Part shown: positions 9,038-55,242 of the stretch, piece by piece
Numbering within the stretch: the first letter of the stretch is position 1
Layout: each line of letters opens with the position of its first letter
The notes under the pieces: generated by a model
Told to the model about the DNA's origin: nothing
The model's input: only the letters and a program-made list of their open reading frames with translations
The model's database searches: none
Program-made: the position numbers and the translations under genes
Source of the DNA: Jiella sonneratiae
GTDB taxonomy: Bacteria; Pseudomonadota; Alphaproteobacteria; Rhizobiales; Rhizobiaceae
Direction: 5' to 3'
Length of the DNA: 64,000 nucleotides
Assembly (NCBI RefSeq): GCF_017353515.1
Contig: NZ_JAFMPY010000026.1
Span: 1 to 64,000 of the forward strand

Positions 9038-9977
9038 GGGCCGCCATGCCGGGGGTCTCGCCGAAACACCAGGCGAGGATCGCCTTCTGCGCATGCAGGC
9101 GGTTTTCGGCCTCGTCGAACACCACCGACTGCGGGCCGTCGATGACGCCGTCGGTCACCTCCTCACCGCGATGGGCGGGCAGGCAGTGCATGAACAGGGC
9201 GTCGGGCCGTGCGTGGCGCATCAGGGCCTCGTTGACCTGATAGGGCATGAACACGTTGTGGCCGCGCGCCCGGTCCTCGCGCCCCATCGACACCCAGGTG
9301 TCGGTGACGACGCAGTCGGCCCCGGCGACCGCCTCGAGCGGATCGGTGGTGGTGAGGATCTTCGCCCCCGCGCCGCGGGCCCAGTCGACGAAGCGGCCGT
9401 CGAGGTCGGAGCCCTCCGGCGTCGCGATCCTGAGCTCGAAATCGAAGCGCGCCGACGCCTCGGCGAAGGAGGCGAGGACGTTGTTGCCGTCGCCGGACCA
9501 GGCGAAGACCTTGCCCTTCACCGCCCCGCGCTTTTCCTCGAAGGTCATCAGGTCGGCCATGATCTGGCAGGGATGGGTGTCGTCTGTCAGGCCGTTGATG
9601 ACCGGCACCGTCGCATGCTCGGCCATCTCCAGCAGCCGGTCGTGGCTGGTGGTCCGGATCATGATGGCGTCGACGTAGCGCGACAGCACGCGGGCGGTGT
9701 CGGCGATGGTCTCCGAACGGCCGAGCTGCATCTCGGCGCCGGAGAGGAACAGCGTCTCGCCGCCGAGCTGGCGCATCGCCACGTCGAAGGAGACGCGGGT
9801 GCGGGTCGAGGGCTTGTCGAAGATCATCGCCAGCATCTTGCCGGCGAGCGGCTTGTCGCCGGCCGGCAGCTTCGCCTTGCGGCTGACGGCGTCGTCGATG
9901 ATGCGGCGCAGCTCTTCGCGCGAGACCTTCGAGATGTCGAGGAAATGGCGGGGGTCGGAACTCGTCGTCATGGTCAT
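9030..9977 (-). CDS. argF: Ornithine carbamoyltransferase
   Basis: Makes citrulline from ornithine and carbamoyl phosphate in arginine biosynthesis. The carbamoyl-phosphate-binding motif is [16 protein letters not shown]. Also visible are [39 protein letters not shown], the ornithine loop VTDTWVSMG and the [11 protein letters not shown] motif. Three in-frame ATGs (9983, 9977, 9971) are possible starts. I favour 9977 because a GAG sits six bases upstream, but a difference of two codons either way cannot be excluded. The gene begins within a few bases of the argD stop. Confidence 0.94.
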
Positions 9978-13510: not shown

Positions 13511-13600
13511 GGCCGGCAGTGGGGTGAAGGCGAAGCATGCTCATCCCGCCGTGGACGCTTCCTCGTCTGCACCGCCGGGACGGTTTCGGCGCTGAGGCAT

Positions 13601-14066
13601 GGATCCCGGGTCAAGCCCGGGATGACGACGCTTCGAGGATCGATCCCTTTCCTGACAAGGCGATGCACGCCTGACGCAGGACCGAGGTGGGACAGCGTGA
13701 CGAAGCCGGCAGCGCCACAGACGCTTCGTCATCCCGGGCTTGACCCGGGATCCATTCCAGACCGTCGACCCTGCCGATACGGAAGACCGCCGCATGCCGA
13801 ACTGCCGGGAGGGTCACGGCGGCGGGGGCAAGCCCGGGATGACGAGGCTTCGAGGATCGATCCCTTTCCTGACAAGGCGGTGCACGCCTGACGCAGGACC
13901 GAGGTGGGACAGTGTGACGAAGCCGGCAGCGCCACAGACGCTTCGTCATCCCGGGCTTGACCCGGGATCCATTCCAGAGCGTCGACCCTGCCGCCACGGA
14001 AGACAGCCATCTTCCGCGCTGCCGGGAGGGTCACGGCGGCGGGGGCAAGCCCGGGGATGACGACGC
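13601..14066. repeat. 217-bp tandem repeat carrying family C palindromes
   Basis: Two nearly identical 217-bp units and the start of a third lie head to tail between the convergent phnM and SDR genes. For example, GCTTCGAGGATCGATCCC starts at 13630 and again at 13847. A shared TCACGGCGGCGGGGGCAAGC block occurs at 13814 and 14031. Each unit contains inverted copies of a palindrome with an ATCCCGGG/CCCGGGAT stem next to GATGACG: full copies at 13601-13628 and 13727-13755, and again near 13827-13847, 13944-13973 and 14044-14063. Short open frames across it are by-products of the repeat. The rest of the 13511-14076 gap shows nothing coding. Confidence 0.9.
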
Positions 14067-49889: not shown

Positions 49890-51155
49890 ATGATGATGAA
49901 CGACCTCGTCGCCCGCCTGACCCACCGCAGGAAGGGCTATACGCTCGAAGCCCCCTTCTACACGGATCCGGAGATCTTCGACGCCGACATGGAGGTGATC
50001 TTCGGCCGGCACTGGCTGTTCGTCGGCGTCGAGCCGGACGTGCCGGAGCCGGGCGACGTCATGGTCGTCGACATCGGCAAGAACTCCGTCGCCATCGTCA
50101 GGGACGACGACGGCGAAATCCGCGCCTTCCACAATGTCTGCCGGCATCGCGGCGCGCGCCTCGTCCACGAGGAGAAGTCCACCGTCGGCAACCTCGTCTG
50201 CCGCTACCACTCCTGGGTCTACGACACGACGGGCAAGCTGATCCATGCCGAGCACATGGGCGAGACCTTCGACAAGTCGTGCCATGGGCTGAAGCCGGTG
50301 CACGTCCGCTCGCTCGAGGGGCTGCTCTTCATCTGCCTCGCCGACAACCCGCCGCAGGACTTCGACGAGCTCGAGCGGGTGATGGCTCCCTACCTTAAGC
50401 CCCACAATCTGCGCGAGACCAAGGTCGCCTACCAGCACGACCTGATCGAGCCGGGCAACTGGAAGCTGACGATGGAGAACAACCGCGAGTGCTATCACTG
50501 CGGCGCGAACCATCCCGAGCTCACCGTGCCGCTGTTCGCCTACGGCTTCGGCTTCGCGCCGGAAGAGCTCGACGACAGCGAGCGCGAGCATGCCGCGCAA
50601 TATGCCTGCATGCTGAACGACAACCACCGCGACTGGGAGGCCGCCGGCCTGCCCTCGCGCGAGGTCGACCGGCTCGACGACATGGTGACCGGGTTCCGCA
50701 CCGAGCGCCTGCCGCTCGCCGGCGCCGGCGAGAGCCACACCATCGACACCAAGCGCGCCTGCAACAAGCTGATGGGCAACCTCTCCAACGCCAAGGCGGG
50801 CGGTCTGCACTTCTGGACACAGCCGAATTCCTGGCACCATTTCATGGGCGACCACGCGGTGGTGTTCTCCGTCCTGCCGCTCGACGCCGAGCGCTCGCTG
50901 CTGAGGACCAAATGGCTGGTCCACAAGGACGCGGTCGAGGGCGTCGACTACGACCTGCAGAATCTCATCGGCGTCTGGATGGCGACCAACCAGCAGGATT
51001 CCGACCTCGTCGGCTACTGCCAGGACGGCGCGCGGATGACGGGCTACGCGCAGGGCCCCTATTCGCCGCATACCGAGATGCTCGTCGAGAAGTTCATCAA
51101 CTGGTATGTCGGCCGGATGCTGTCGCATCTCGCCGAGACCCGCGCCGTCGCCTGA
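49890..51155 (+). CDS. gbcA: Rieske oxygenase, glycine betaine demethylase subunit A
   Basis: A 421-residue aromatic-ring-hydroxylating-type oxygenase. The Rieske ligands are CRHRG and CRYHSW around residues 87-110. The mononuclear iron site is NNRECYHCGANHPEL. In betaine catabolism it removes one methyl group as formaldehyde to give dimethylglycine. Here gbcB, dgcA and dgcB follow directly, and soxBDAG precedes it. Stachydrine or a related betaine is an alternative substrate, because Stc2 is a close relative. Three in-frame ATGs lie within seven bases; the first is used. Confidence 0.88.
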   Translation: MMMNDLVARLTHRRKGYTLEAPFYTDPEIFDADMEVIFGRHWLFVGVEPDVPEPGDVMVVDIGKNSVAIVRDDDGEIRAFHNVCRHRGARLVHEEKSTVGNLVCRYHSWVYDTTGKLIHAEHMGETFDKSCHGLKPVHVRSLEGLLFICLADNPPQDFDELERVMAPYLKPHNLRETKVAYQHDLIEPGNWKLTMENNRECYHCGANHPELTVPLFAYGFGFAPEELDDSEREHAAQYACMLNDNHRDWEAAGLPSREVDRLDDMVTGFRTERLPLAGAGESHTIDTKRACNKLMGNLSNAKAGGLHFWTQPNSWHHFMGDHAVVFSVLPLDAERSLLRTKWLVHKDAVEGVDYDLQNLIGVWMATNQQDSDLVGYCQDGARMTGYAQGPYSPHTEMLVEKFINWYVGRMLSHLAETRAVA

Positions 51156-51168
51156 AGGGTGCCAAGCG

Positions 51169-52284
51169 ATGGATGCTCCGGTTCCCAAGAACGTCACCGT
51201 CGGCCCCGTGCCCACCGGCTATTACCGCTGGGAGCCGGAGGAGGACGACGTCCTGATCTGCCGTGCCGTCCGTGAGGAGACGCACGACGTCAAGACCTTC
51301 GTCTTCGCCCCGCGGCACAAGCGCCAGTTCGAATTCGTCTCCGGCCAGTTCCTGACCTTCGAGTTCGAGATCGCCGGCGAGACGATCCATCGCTGCTACA
51401 CGATCTCGTCGCCGCCGACCCGGCCCGACACGGTGTCGATCACCGTCAAGCGCGTGCCGGGCGGGCCGGTGTCGAACTTCCTGCACGCCGAGTTCCAGCC
51501 GGGCATGATGCTGAAGGCGACGGTGCCGATGGGCGTCTTCTCCTGGTCGGGCATGCAGGCGACGAAGTATCTCTTCATCTCCGGCGGCTCGGGCATCACG
51601 CCGATGATGTCGATGACCCGGGCCTCCTTCGACCTCGCGCTGATCTCCGACATCGCCTTCGTCCACGCCGCGCGCTCGCCCGCCGACATCATCTTCCGCG
51701 ACGAGCTCGACTATATGAGCCGGCGCAACCGCTCGATCCGCCCGACCTTCATCGTCGAGGACGACGCGCCGCGCGAGAGCTGGGGCGGCTATCGCGGTCG
51801 TCTCGACGGAAACAAGCTGGCGATGATCTGCCCGGATTTCCGCGAGCGGACCGTCTTCGTCTGCGGCCCCGCGCCGTTCATGAAGGCGGTGAAGACGACG
51901 CTGAAGGAAGCCGGCTTCGACATGGGCCGCTACTTCCAGGAAAGCTTCAACTTCGACGACTTCACCGAAGAGGCGCAGGAGAAGATCACCGAGGCGGCCG
52001 AGGAGATCGATTCCGGCGTCAGGATCTTCCAGCTCGAATTCACCAAGACCGGCAGGACGATCGAATGCCCGGAGGGCATGACGGTGCTGGAAGCGGCGCG
52101 GCGCGCCGGCATGCGCCTGCCCTCCTCCTGCTCGAAGGGGCTTTGCGGCACCTGCAAGTCGAAGCTGACCGCCGGCTCCGTCGAAATGAAGCACGGCGGC
52201 GGCATCCGCCAGCGCGAGATCGACGCCGGCATGGCGCTCCTGTGCTGCTCGAAGCCGAAGACGGACCTGGTGATCGAGCGGTGA
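51169..52284 (+). CDS. gbcB: Glycine betaine demethylase reductase subunit B
   Basis: A 371-residue reductase that passes electrons from NAD(P)H to the Rieske oxygenase. The flavin domain has HRCYTISSPPTRPDTVSI, the NAD domain SGGSGITPMMSM and FVCGPAPFMKAV, and the C-terminal plant-type 2Fe-2S domain has CSKGLCGTCKSK, with the fourth cysteine in LLCCSK. The start is ATG 51169, 14 bases after gbcA. Confidence 0.92.
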   Translation: MDAPVPKNVTVGPVPTGYYRWEPEEDDVLICRAVREETHDVKTFVFAPRHKRQFEFVSGQFLTFEFEIAGETIHRCYTISSPPTRPDTVSITVKRVPGGPVSNFLHAEFQPGMMLKATVPMGVFSWSGMQATKYLFISGGSGITPMMSMTRASFDLALISDIAFVHAARSPADIIFRDELDYMSRRNRSIRPTFIVEDDAPRESWGGYRGRLDGNKLAMICPDFRERTVFVCGPAPFMKAVKTTLKEAGFDMGRYFQESFNFDDFTEEAQEKITEAAEEIDSGVRIFQLEFTKTGRTIECPEGMTVLEAARRAGMRLPSSCSKGLCGTCKSKLTAGSVEMKHGGGIRQREIDAGMALLCCSKPKTDLVIER

Positions 52285-52346
52285 GTGGATGGGCGCTCAT
52301 GGCCGGCTTGGCTGACGCAGGACGCGGGCGTCGTCGCTCTACGATC

Positions 52347-52497
52347 CCCTGGATTCTCGGGACGGGGCCCGAGAATGACGGCCGGGGGGGAAGGATCGGC
52401 GCCTCTTCCTGCAGCGCCGAGACTGCCACAGACGTCTCAGGACAGGCGACACCACCCACGCTTCGTCATTCTCGGGCCCCGTCCCGAGAATCCAGGG
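52347..52497. repeat. Family B paired palindrome, copy B1
   Basis: Two inverted copies of a hairpin (stem ATTCTCGGG/CCCGAGAAT, preceded by CCTGG and followed by GACG) lie at 52347-52380 and 52464-52497, with a spacer of about 80 bases. The same element in the same orientation is at 52908-53060. The two flank a GIY-YIG nuclease gene. Confidence 0.88.
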
Positions 52498-52556
52498 CGG
52501 CCTCACCGACCGATGACCACAAGCGCCAGAACCGTCAGCCGGAGGCGTAGGCGACC

Positions 52557-52940
52557 ATGGGAGGCTGGGTGTACATCATGGCGTCGGGTCGGAACGGCAC
52601 GCTCTATGTCGGTGTCACCTCCGACCTGCACCGCCGCGTCCAAGAGCATCGCGAAGGCGACCTCGGCGGCTTCACGGCCCGGCACGGCTGCAAGACCCTC
52701 GTCTGGCACGAACGCCACGACGACATCGAGAGCGCCATCCAGCGCGAGACGTCGATCAAGCGCTACCGCCGCGCCTGGAAGCTCAGGCTGATCGAGAATC
52801 TGAACCCGCGATGGCTGGACTTGTTCGAACGGTTTTCGGACGAGGACAATCCCTACAGGCCGTCTTTCGTGCGGTCATTCGAGGAGCTGCCGTCGGCACC
52901 CGACGCTCCCCTGGATTCTCGGGACGGGGCCCGAGAATGA
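52557..52940 (+). CDS. GIY-YIG nuclease family protein
   Basis: A 127-residue small endonuclease of the UvrC-Intron-type fold. The motif VYIMASGRNGTLYVGVTSDL is the GIY-YIG signature in a VYI-YVG form. The catalytic arginine is probably in DLHRRVQEHR, and a glutamate lies in QRETSIKRYRRAWKLRLIE. The start at ATG 52557 has GGAGG 11 bases upstream. The last nine codons (LDSRDGARE) and the stop come from palindrome B2, so the C-terminus has been formed by the repeat. It interrupts the betaine cluster between gbcB and dgcA and may be the mobilising nuclease of the flanking repeats; that role is my inference. Confidence 0.85.
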   Translation: MGGWVYIMASGRNGTLYVGVTSDLHRRVQEHREGDLGGFTARHGCKTLVWHERHDDIESAIQRETSIKRYRRAWKLRLIENLNPRWLDLFERFSDEDNPYRPSFVRSFEELPSAPDAPLDSRDGARE

Positions 52941-53060
52941 CGACCGGGAGGGAACGTGCAGCGCCTTCTCCTGCGACGCCGAGGCTTCCGCCGACGGTGC
53001 AGGACGAGTGTCGCCGCCAACGCTTCGTCATTCTCGGGCCCCGTCCCGAGAATCCAGGGG
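52908..53060. repeat. Family B paired palindrome, copy B2
   Basis: Left palindrome 52908-52942 and inverted right palindrome 53026-53060, identical in core to B1. The spacers of B1 and B2 are also related (both contain GCAGCGCC near the left and a CGCTTCGTCATT junction on the right). The left palindrome supplies the GIY-YIG stop codon. Confidence 0.88.
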
Positions 53061-53187: not shown

Positions 53188-55242
53188 ATGATCGCCAATG
53201 CCGAAGCTCTCCTGAAGCCGCTGACCATCAAGGGCGTCACCTTCCGCAACCGGGTGATGTCGACGAGCCATGCCCCATCCTACGGTAAGGACGGCAAGCC
53301 GCAGCAGCGCTATCAGCTCTATCACGAGGAAAAGGCCAAGGGCGGCATCGGCCTGACGATGTTCGGCGGCTCGTCCTCGGTGTCGGTCGACAGCCCGGCG
53401 GCGCCGTGGAACCAGATTTCGGTCGCCGACGACAGCGTCGTGCCGTTCTTCCGGGAGTTCTCCGAGCGCATCCACAGACACGGCGCCAGGCTGATGGTCC
53501 AGCTGACCCATATGGGCCGGCGCACCAAGTGGGACACCGAGCACTGGCTGCCGGTGAAGTCGGCCTCCGTCACGCGCGAACCGGCGTCGCGGGCGATCGC
53601 GAAAGCGCTGGAGCAGGAGGAGATCGACCGCATCGTCGCCGACTTCTCCGCCGCGGCGAAGCGCTGCAGGGAGGGCGGGCTCGACGGCTGCGAGATCTCC
53701 GCCGCCCACGGCCATCTGGTCGACCAGTTCTGGTCGCCGAACTCCAACCACCGCACCGACAAATACGGCGGCAGCCTCGAAAACCGCATGCGCTTCGGCA
53801 TCGAGGTCCTCACCGCCATGCGCGAGGCGGTGGGCGACGACTATCTGATCGGCATGCGCATGTCCGGCGACGAGATGCTGAAGGGCGGCCTTTCCCACGA
53901 GGACTGCGTCGCCATCGCGGTGGAATACACCTCGCGCGGCCTCGTCGACTTCCTCAACGTCGTCGGCGGCCAGGCGCGCGACCACATCGCCCACGCGATC
54001 TGCCTGCCCAACATGTCCTTTCCGGTGGCGCCGTTCCTGCCGCTGCCCTCGGCGATCAAGCGCGAGGTCGACGTGCCGATCTTCCACGCCCAGCGCGTGA
54101 CGGATCTCGCCACCGGCGCCCGCGCCGTCGCGGAAGGCCATGTCGACATGATCGCCATGACGCGGGCTCACATCGCCGATCCGCATCTCGTCAAGAAACT
54201 GTCCGAAGGCCGCGCCGACGACATCCGGCAATGCGTCGGCGCCGGCTACTGCATCGACCGGATCTATGTCGGCGGCGACGCGCTCTGCATCCAGAACGCC
54301 GCGACCGGCCGCGAGGCGACCATGCCGCACGTCATCGCAAAGGCCTCTGCGGCAAAGACCGCGGTGGTCGTCGGCGGCGGCGTCGGCGGTCTCGAGGCGG
54401 CGCGGGTTCTCGCCGAGCGCGGCCACAAGGTGACGCTGTTCGAGAAGTCTGGCCGCCTCGGCGGCCAGGTCAACGTCGCGGCGAAGGCGACCTGGCGCGA
54501 GGCGCTGTCGGGAATTCCGCGCTGGCTGGCCGGCCAGGTCCAGAAGCTCGGCGTCGACGTCCGCCTGAACACCGAGGCGGGGGAGGCCGAGATCGCGGCG
54601 CTCTCGCCCGACATCGTCGTCGTCGCCACCGGCGGCCTGCCGCAGCGGGGCGAGGCGAAGGGCTTCGAACACGCCGTCACCACCTGGGACGTTCTGGAAG
54701 GACGCTCCGACCCGTCGGGCACGGTGCTTCTCTACGACGAGATCGGCGGCCACAACGCCGCCTCCACCGCCGAGGTGCTGGCGAAGAAGGGCTGCCTCGT
54801 CGAACTCGTCACCCACGACCGGATGATCGGCGAGGAGATCGGCCCGACCAACCAGCCGGTGCATCTGCGCGAGCTCTACAAGCTCGGCGTCCTGATGACG
54901 CCGAATTCCGAGCTGATCGAGATCTATCCGGAAGGCAACCGGCTGATCGCCGCGATCCGCAATACCATGACCGACGCCGAGGAGGAGCGGGTGGTCGACG
55001 CCGTGGTCGTCGACTACGGCACCGTGCCGGTGGACGACCTCCACTTCGCGCTGAAGGAGCGGTCGAAGAACAAGGGGCTGACCGACCTTCAGGCGATGAT
55101 CGCCGGCCGGCCGCAGCCTTTCGAGGCGAACGGGGCGGGCGCGGCCGCGGGCTACACGCTCTACCGCATCGGCGACGCCGTCGCCGGCCGCAACATCCAC
55201 GCCGCCATCTACGACGCCCTGCGCCTCTGCAAGGATCTGTGA
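53188..55242 (+). CDS. dgcA: Dimethylglycine / N-methylproline demethylase, DgcA type
   Basis: A 684-residue old-yellow-enzyme-type dehydrogenase. The N-terminal FMN TIM barrel has FRNRVMSTSHAPSYG, QLTHMGRRT and DGCEISAAHGHLVDQFWSP. An iron-sulfur segment CVGAGYCIDRIY...ALC (near residues 352-370) follows. The C-terminal NAD/FAD-like domain has VVGGGVGGLEAARVLAERG. DgcA with DgcB oxidises dimethylglycine to sarcosine; StcD, which acts on N-methylproline, is a close relative and an alternative. Only three cysteines are seen in the cluster segment where trimethylamine dehydrogenase has four. Confidence 0.9.
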   Translation: MIANAEALLKPLTIKGVTFRNRVMSTSHAPSYGKDGKPQQRYQLYHEEKAKGGIGLTMFGGSSSVSVDSPAAPWNQISVADDSVVPFFREFSERIHRHGARLMVQLTHMGRRTKWDTEHWLPVKSASVTREPASRAIAKALEQEEIDRIVADFSAAAKRCREGGLDGCEISAAHGHLVDQFWSPNSNHRTDKYGGSLENRMRFGIEVLTAMREAVGDDYLIGMRMSGDEMLKGGLSHEDCVAIAVEYTSRGLVDFLNVVGGQARDHIAHAICLPNMSFPVAPFLPLPSAIKREVDVPIFHAQRVTDLATGARAVAEGHVDMIAMTRAHIADPHLVKKLSEGRADDIRQCVGAGYCIDRIYVGGDALCIQNAATGREATMPHVIAKASAAKTAVVVGGGVGGLEAARVLAERGHKVTLFEKSGRLGGQVNVAAKATWREALSGIPRWLAGQVQKLGVDVRLNTEAGEAEIAALSPDIVVVATGGLPQRGEAKGFEHAVTTWDVLEGRSDPSGTVLLYDEIGGHNAASTAEVLAKKGCLVELVTHDRMIGEEIGPTNQPVHLRELYKLGVLMTPNSELIEIYPEGNRLIAAIRNTMTDAEEERVVDAVVVDYGTVPVDDLHFALKERSKNKGLTDLQAMIAGRPQPFEANGAGAAAGYTLYRIGDAVAGRNIHAAIYDALRLCKDL

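Follow-up and report, generated by a model that had tools for sequence, protein, structure and literature searches.

The locus studied here raises the question whether a GIY-YIG nuclease can stand in the place that RAYT transposases occupy among REP elements. The window, i.e. the whole stretch of 64,000 nucleotides from Jiella sonneratiae that was analysed, contains a small nuclease gene between two copies of a paired palindrome. The preliminary description, made from the sequence alone, read this arrangement as a unit of about 714 bp inserted between gbcB and dgcA, claimed that a GIY-YIG enzyme in the mobilizing role of RAYT would be new, and compared the unit with a pair of non-autonomous and autonomous elements.

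Anatomy of the unit and its nuclease

The claim that a 384-bp GIY-YIG gene is flanked by two direct copies of a paired palindrome held. The open reading frame at 52557–52940 (plus strand) encodes a GIY-YIG nuclease of 127 aa and is located between two paired palindromes of about 150 bp, B1 (52346–52497) and B2 (52908–53060), which fall within a direct repeat of 174 nt with 82% identity and a spacing of 562 bp. The two palindromes of each copy are exact reverse complements over 34 nt (B1) and 36 nt (B2). Each of the four REPs of the unit consists of the tag CGTC, a 9-bp stem (ATTCTCGGG), a 6-nt loop and CCAGGG, and the single strand has a predicted fold of -8.3 kcal/mol (z -3.1). As delimited by the repeat and the REP positions, the left dimer B1 comprises REP 1 (52347–52380, minus strand) and REP 2 (52464–52497, plus strand) and the right dimer B2 comprises REP 3 (52909–52942, minus strand) and REP 4 (53026–53059, plus strand), both with their tags inward. 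The tags of REP 1 and REP 2 are joined by a linker (52381–52463) that is repeated in B2, where positions 52943–53025 separate the tags of REP 3 and REP 4. Roughly the last ten codons and the stop of the nuclease gene lie inside REP 3, and gene and repeat therefore overlap.

The proposed insertion of the whole unit between gbcB and dgcA held only in part. The site is polymorphic (see below), but the mobile part is likely to be the 479-bp core at 52464–52942 (plus strand), REP(+)–nuclease gene–REP(-) with tags outward, rather than the complete 714 bp. REP 2 represents the left and REP 3 the right end of this proposed autonomous core, whose boundary is inferred from orientation and from end motifs common to isolated dimers: in the core, both ends and the outward direction of the tags are as in these dimers. 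The names of the flanking genes are plausible only, because their best NCBIfam matches fall under the cut-offs; the upstream gbcB-like reductase (51106–52284, plus strand) reaches 355.8 bits with NF058606 (cut-off 500) and the downstream dgcA-like oxidoreductase of the OYE family (53188–55242, plus strand) 524.4 bits with TIGR03997 (cut-off 793.15). Elsewhere in the window, positions 13597–13974 harbor a small cluster of three REPs of another type (ATCCCGGGCTTGACCCGGGAT), which is also found beside the GIY-YIG gene at 158 kb of contig C14.

The protein matches the Pfam GIY-YIG model with 50.4 bits (cut-off 22.6). GIY-YIG and T5orf172 are its only Pfam matches, hence no HUH or Y1 tyrosine transposase model was hit, and the NCBIfam search returned no model at E 0.001 and thus no curated UPF0213/YhbQ family. 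Residues Y6, Y17, R27, E64 and N83 do not vary across 42 aligned sequences of the subfamily. Among five congeneric gene copies dN/dS is 0.07–0.12 (first 100 codons only); the protein has therefore been kept functional, and purifying selection is shown. The AlphaFold2 model (pLDDT 83) contains about 95 residues of ordered protein without a separate DNA-binding domain, the residues past about 95 being poorly predicted. Its sole Foldseek match below 0.001 is the UPF0213 protein BH0048 (1zg2, E 1.6e-4), which is also the closest PDB match by sequence (E 1.3e-8), followed by a weak match to Slx1 in the Slx1–Slx4 complex (7cq3, E 0.014). A role of the nuclease in defence or phage biology was considered and found no support, as no family matched the protein in the PADLOC and PHROGs searches.

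REPs beside GIY-YIG genes in the source genome and beyond

The source genome contains five PF01541 genes, namely uvrC and four small ones. All four small genes carry REPs on both sides, each of a different type: ATTCTCGGG in the window, ATCCTCGGCCC with GGGGAT on contig C26, ATCCCGGCC/ATCCCGGG at 158 kb of C14, and ATCCTCG..CGAGGAT with a CTA tail at 46 kb of C14. The uvrC gene of this genome has no REP within 1 kb. The core pattern of the window REPs has 15 matches in 5.15 Mb, and none if it is read backwards. Among 91 catalogued REPs, for which 13 of 89 pattern matches had been removed beforehand by eye as non-palindromic, only five neighbouring pairs are spaced 300–1000 bp; four of these gaps each enclose one of the small GIY-YIG genes, and the remaining one borders on such a unit. 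Chance proximity is not a viable explanation: with the catalogued REPs, only 0.027% of start positions in the genome place a 330-bp gene with a REP within 200 bp of both ends, and the real GIY-YIG genes are still counted in this figure.

The REPs of the source genome are dispersed, mostly as inverted dimers. Their similarity drops sharply outside the tag, and the T preceding it is invariant in one family and frequent in a second. Isolated dimers have two distinct subterminal motifs inside the hairpin, corresponding to a left and a right end. The loop of the other three REP types is mostly 5–6 nt long, and the other three gene units do not have the simple REP(+)–gene–REP(-) layout. Two observations on single loci may be added. 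The REP type at L029 8833–9846 (G000:C26:153832–154845) was found, with the pattern used, only around its own gene (five matches, none elsewhere in the genome) and could be a newborn or a dying family. The C14 gene at 46 kb (L031 4869–5231) lies in the sufB–sufC gap, as does a GIY-YIG gene with a different REP class on the Azospirillum lipoferum plasmid AZO_p3 (L179 2986–3279), which would be compatible with two independent insertions; the names sufB and sufC were assigned from translations.

We surveyed 61 genomes of the order, with 73 small GIY-YIG loci outside the source genome and 26 UvrC loci, the latter all from genomes that also hold small GIY-YIG genes. The loci G024:C82, G049:C144, G049:C120 and G037:C151:75300 were excluded from the small set, as were weak matches inside longer frames. 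A strict CGTC, TGTC or CCTC REP within 1 kb is present at 24 of the 73 small genes (on both sides in eight) and at none of the 27 UvrC controls including that of the source genome; 26 of these are valid, since the stretch of row L143 began inside the gene and covered only sequence within and near it. Close to small GIY-YIG genes (within 100 bp), perfect hairpins counted without regard to a tag reach 3.67/kb, versus 0.25–0.42/kb beyond 1 kb, a roughly tenfold difference, and the density within 100 bp of uvrC is 0.94/kb.

The association is confined to one subfamily, designated clade I and defined by sequence motifs (REK..K.W.R.WK..LIE..NP.W.DL) rather than by a tree. Left and right hairpins are at least 80% identical at 30 of 61 clade I genes, the four of the source genome included, but only at one of 16 genes of other small subfamilies (Fisher p 0.001), and a match between clade I sides drawn from different genomes is found in 163 of 2996 combinations (5.4%). 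Five loci were placed in clade I by hand (L071, L073, L098, L107 and L140, the first two with matched hairpins); prior to this step the counts were 28/56 inside and 3/21 outside the clade. REPs as a trait of all GIY-YIG genes are excluded by UvrC (0/26 valid controls) and by the other small subfamilies. The specific pairing is shown, and the association of clade I genes with REPs is all but certain.

The same picture emerges from a longer list obtained by a clade I alignment search. Of its best 80 named loci, which according to the record titles are mostly from alpha-, beta- and gammaproteobacteria, 41 have matched hairpins, versus 395 of 6320 combinations of sides from different loci, and strict REPs within 1 kb occur on at least one side in 44 and on both sides in 28. 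Among 12 inspected of 34 plasmid-entry records, ten exhibit REPs on at least one side, including Sinorhizobium meliloti, Aeromonas caviae, Photobacterium, Azospirillum and Novosphingobium; no REPs were seen beside the GIY-YIG gene in Planktothrix and Spirosoma. The clade I gene of Neisseria gonorrhoeae is flanked on both sides by CGTC REP arrays of the dRS3 kind. In Novosphingobium aromaticivorans DSM 12444, matched hairpins bracket the gene copy on pNL2. Within 400 bp, strict-tag REPs are located on both sides in 59 of 151 clade I rows, with tags outward in 38 of the 59 (p 2e-10 versus one quarter), and are absent from both sides in 65. Clade I genes without any hairpin of at least 18 nt within 400 bp number 11/61 and 13/80, and include three loci each from Mesorhizobium and Caulobacter.

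Four side observations concern individual loci. Some clade I genes without a CGTC REP are accompanied by hairpins with other tags (GCTC, GGCT or CGTT, read by eye; L083, L088, L090, L121, L125, L134 and L138), possibly REP groups beyond those described. At L129, the identical hairpin GGCCTCGAAGGACGAGGCC is present at 9778 and 10360, on both sides of a GIY-YIG gene from another small subfamily. Three small genes of a subfamily with an SGRAF-like motif, in three genomes, each adjoin a tRNA-Ala(GGC) gene (L068 9685–9760, L070 10237–10312 and L128 9575–9650). In Photobacterium sp. GJ3 (L171 3449–5789), REP dimers in tandem, seven complete and an eighth partial, follow the GIY-YIG gene.

Gene and hairpin are matched individually, and this gene-by-gene matching is likewise shown. 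In genomes with several clade I genes, the hairpins to the left and right of the same gene match in 20 of 24 cases versus 11 of 48 for the left of one gene and the right of another, six of the 11 stemming from a single genome. Two loop classes were compared, 4 nt (mostly GAAG, GAAA or GCAG) and 5 nt (mostly CTTGA), and on a tree of 79 clade I proteins the loop class requires 12 changes, versus a mean of 30.1 after shuffling, with none of 200 shuffles as low. This clustering is shown for a tree that contains only rows with matched hairpins, including nine plasmid rows whose hairpin was chosen by eye, and has support below 80 on 42 of 75 inner branches. The class beside the gene is also the one that prevails among all REPs in 19 of 20 single-class genomes (4 nt, 11/11; 5 nt, 8/9), the single exception being G037. 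Narrow margins occur in G038 (64 vs 72), G041 (34 vs 27) and G010 (0 vs 1). Loop class in the genome count was read from the parity of the hairpin length, by which the source genome G000 with its 6-nt loop is labelled as both classes; G000 and G015 were left out of the 20 genomes.

REP number is correlated with the presence of the gene. Genomes with a clade I gene (n=33) have a median of 71 REPs versus 9.5 in those without (n=28; p 1.1e-6), and the Spearman correlation between REP number and clade I gene number is 0.61. No clear difference is found for other small GIY-YIG subfamilies (medians 40.5 and 30, p 0.24). Counts were obtained with two covariance models and are lower bounds where they reach the caps near 120 and 125 per genome. 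The correlation itself is shown, with the reservation that neither the tree nor the abundance statistics were corrected for relatedness and that host kinship may inflate both. Five REP-rich genomes lack a clade I gene (G002, G016, G021, G022 and G031 with 30, 68, 47, 211 and 67 REPs, respectively), and two genomes with such a gene have fewer than five REPs.

The gbcB–dgcA site across the genus

The site was located in nine congeners through the dgcA-like downstream gene (86–93% identity), giving ten genomes with the source genome. The whole unit is present in four of them, i.e. J. sonneratiae, G063, G069 and G067, the last with a third dimer. G061 has the gene and the right dimer without the left one, and G066 retains a solo dimer without gene. 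No REP is found in the gap of G062, G064, G065 and G068, which measures 139, 819, 43 and 41 bp, respectively. The 819 bp of G064 (L265) are unrelated, REP-free sequence, and the gap is possibly a spot that tolerates insertions. This presence and absence at the site is shown. The preliminary description had named two outcomes that would argue for mere proximity, a lack of palindrome enrichment beside GIY-YIG genes and a lack of empty sites in relatives. Neither was met, since enrichment is documented by 4/4 genes in the source genome and by the 30/61 versus 1/16 comparison, and full, solo and empty sites coexist within the genus; chance proximity is rejected.

In all ten genomes the cognate nuclease gene (86–89% identity) is restricted to the five that have it at this site. 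Exact REP cores of the window type number 14 in J. sonneratiae, 25 in G061, 22 in G063, 83 in G067 and 23 in G069, versus 0 in G062, 5 in G064, 1 in G065, 41 in G066 and 12 in G068 (one-sided p 0.048 for the five gene-bearing versus the five gene-less genomes); the backward pattern used as a control is absent from all ten. The solo dimer of G066 together with its 41 window-type REPs suggests a recent loss of the gene. At a second, intergenic site a window-type dimer is present in J. sonneratiae, G066 and G067, in G066 alongside a dimer of another type, and G061 and G063 have a CTACTG-type dimer, G069 two dimers of other types and four genomes none.

No exact empty-site junction or target duplication was obtained at the gbcB–dgcA site or at two isolated dimers, of which only the L036 site was read base by base; exact junctions are missing because the congeners diverge too far between conserved genes. 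A comparison of the Rhizobium plasmid pRheCIAT894e (40 of 150 records) gave one-sided matches only, apart from the query itself, and the difference at the hflX–mazG site of S. meliloti lies inside a dimer array of Sinorhizobium sp. K101 and is not an empty site. At the sites compared there was no trace of a recent transposition, an excision product or a duplicated target.

A proposed REPtron-like system, its rivals and its relatives

The presence of hairpins beside one small nuclease gene, often on both sides and specific for the gene, suggests that the protein spreads them. We favour, by a modest margin, a REPtron-like system in which a GIY-YIG nuclease takes the place of RAYT and isolated REP dimers are non-autonomous derivatives; the catalytic role is inferred. 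In this scenario, the unit would be a selfish or semi-domesticated one, a small GIY-YIG gene bounded by cognate CGTC-tagged REPs, and gene and REPs together would seed and maintain a genomic population of dimers. The gene-bearing form, REP(+)–gene–REP(-) with tags outward, would be the autonomous element, and isolated dimers, REP(+)–about 70 bp–REP(-) with ends of these same two kinds, its derivatives. In single-stranded or cruciform DNA the REP ends may form hairpins, of which the nuclease would recognize its cognate one by tag, stem, loop and the tail on the CCA side and nick it at the CGTC border; once released or displaced, the element would be placed elsewhere through replication and repair. 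That the hairpin is recognized as a structure and cut at the CGTC border is inferred from a fold near UPF0213 and then Slx1, a nuclease for branched DNA. Enzyme-driven dispersal and the insertion of new copies are also inferred, and no result presented here shows cutting or nuclease-driven movement of REPs. It is furthermore possible that the nuclease trims or resolves REPs.

The claim of a new mobilizing enzyme is hence supported by association, whereas movement driven by the nuclease was not shown. The comparison with an autonomous and a non-autonomous element gains support from isolated dimers, whose two end types are those of the gene-bearing unit. Identical terminal sequences on gene-bearing and gene-less copies were found in the window family and in part in G006, and because the other three units of the source genome differ in layout, the autonomous/MITE model rests on the window family, the orientation statistics and the partial match in G006.

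The rival that survives best, and remains possible, is that of a processor: the nuclease, serving the host or itself, would remove or resolve hairpins and cruciforms or control REP number without mobilizing them, and the gene would lie near REPs as its unit is REP-built. Purifying selection, a fold near the structure-selective Slx1 and the existence of clade I genes without REPs speak for it. However, a remover predicts few REPs, yet gene-bearing genomes have more of them, and neither the gene-specific type of the flanking REPs nor the isolated dimers with the same ends as the gene unit are explained. An unlikely alternative is homing, in which a free-standing endonuclease cuts REP-like sites and is copied in by homologous repair, while the REPs move by other means. 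GIY-YIG is a fold of homing endonucleases, and the gene-less dimer of G066 at the same site could be an unoccupied target, but within a genome each gene has its own flanking REP type, the loop class of that type is in agreement with the main REP class genome-wide, and in four congeners the site is devoid of both gene and REP. A passive gathering of REPs in intergenic gaps or around newly acquired genes, where they would act as terminators or insulators and be moved by RAYT or another transposase, is in keeping with their intergenic position often close to 3' ends (Di Nocera et al. 2013, PMC3733652), but very unlikely given that REP-bracketed gaps of 300–1000 bp in the source genome are those of GIY-YIG genes plus one adjoining such a unit, that UvrC (0/26) and other small GIY-YIG genes (1/16) are not bracketed, and that CGTC REPs lie near transposase genes in few, fortuitous cases (PMC3733652).

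Our preferred reading, the REPtron-like system, has a bolder version, for which the balance tilts slightly to the negative side. Clade I nucleases would then be the enzymes that the CGTC REP superfamily, with Neisseria dRS3 among its members, has seemed to lack, and REP(+)–gene–REP(-) would be a class of autonomous mobile elements of about 400–480 bp, with a nuclease of about 95–127 aa as sole protein and REP dimers as MITEs, moving without DDE, HUH, serine or tyrosine transposase. A specific candidate enzyme has now been named for CGTC REPs, gene by gene and with its cognate hairpin, so that the question can be put to a simple test by cleavage and knock-out. Should the enzyme move the repeats, the few catalytic folds known to drive mobile DNA in bacteria would be extended by GIY-YIG, and the elements would be unusually small.

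In the open-access literature searched, which did not cover subscription papers and preprints, no earlier report of a link between GIY-YIG genes and REPs was found. According to the 2013 survey, CGTC-tagged REPs, which occur mostly in alphaproteobacteria, but also in Neisseria (where dRS3 is counted among them) and other groups, are apparently without a dedicated transposase (PMC3733652), and the term GIY is absent from the main text of that paper. The window REPs share with them the CGTC tag, a stem of 8–9 bp starting with AT, the CCA tail and the organization in dimers, and they fulfil the tag criterion of the superfamily (unpaired CGTC, TGTC or CCTC at one end). They differ in their loop of 6 nt, outside the usual 4–5 nt from which other lengths are given as exceptions (PMC3733652), and in the GIY-YIG partner gene in place of no dedicated enzyme.

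On the protein side, the fold is common to small GIY-YIG proteins of the UPF0213/YhbQ type and, weakly, to Slx1. The UPF0213-like group of the order sample, named from its motif, has no gene with matched REPs (0/4), and clade I differs from it in having a C-terminal motif of its own (WK..LIE..NP.W.DL). Free-standing GIY-YIG homing endonucleases (I-TevI catalytic fold) share the catalytic fold and the presence/absence polymorphism at a site, whereas the window protein is flanked by its own dispersed repeats and lacks a separate DNA-binding domain in the model.

The REPtron (RAYT/TnpA-REP with GTAG REPs or REPINs) differs from the window unit in its tag, GTAG instead of CGTC, and in its enzyme, an HUH tyrosine transposase instead of a GIY-YIG fold. 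Covalent-tyrosine chemistry is not expected of a GIY-YIG enzyme, unlike the REPtron transposase, and no enzyme of this fold is known to us to join strands. In both systems, a single small nuclease gene is bordered by its cognate REPs, numerous REP dimers are scattered through the genome, and enzymes and REPs vary together; the REPtron criterion of cognate flanking REPs is fulfilled by all four small genes of the source genome and by about half of clade I elsewhere.
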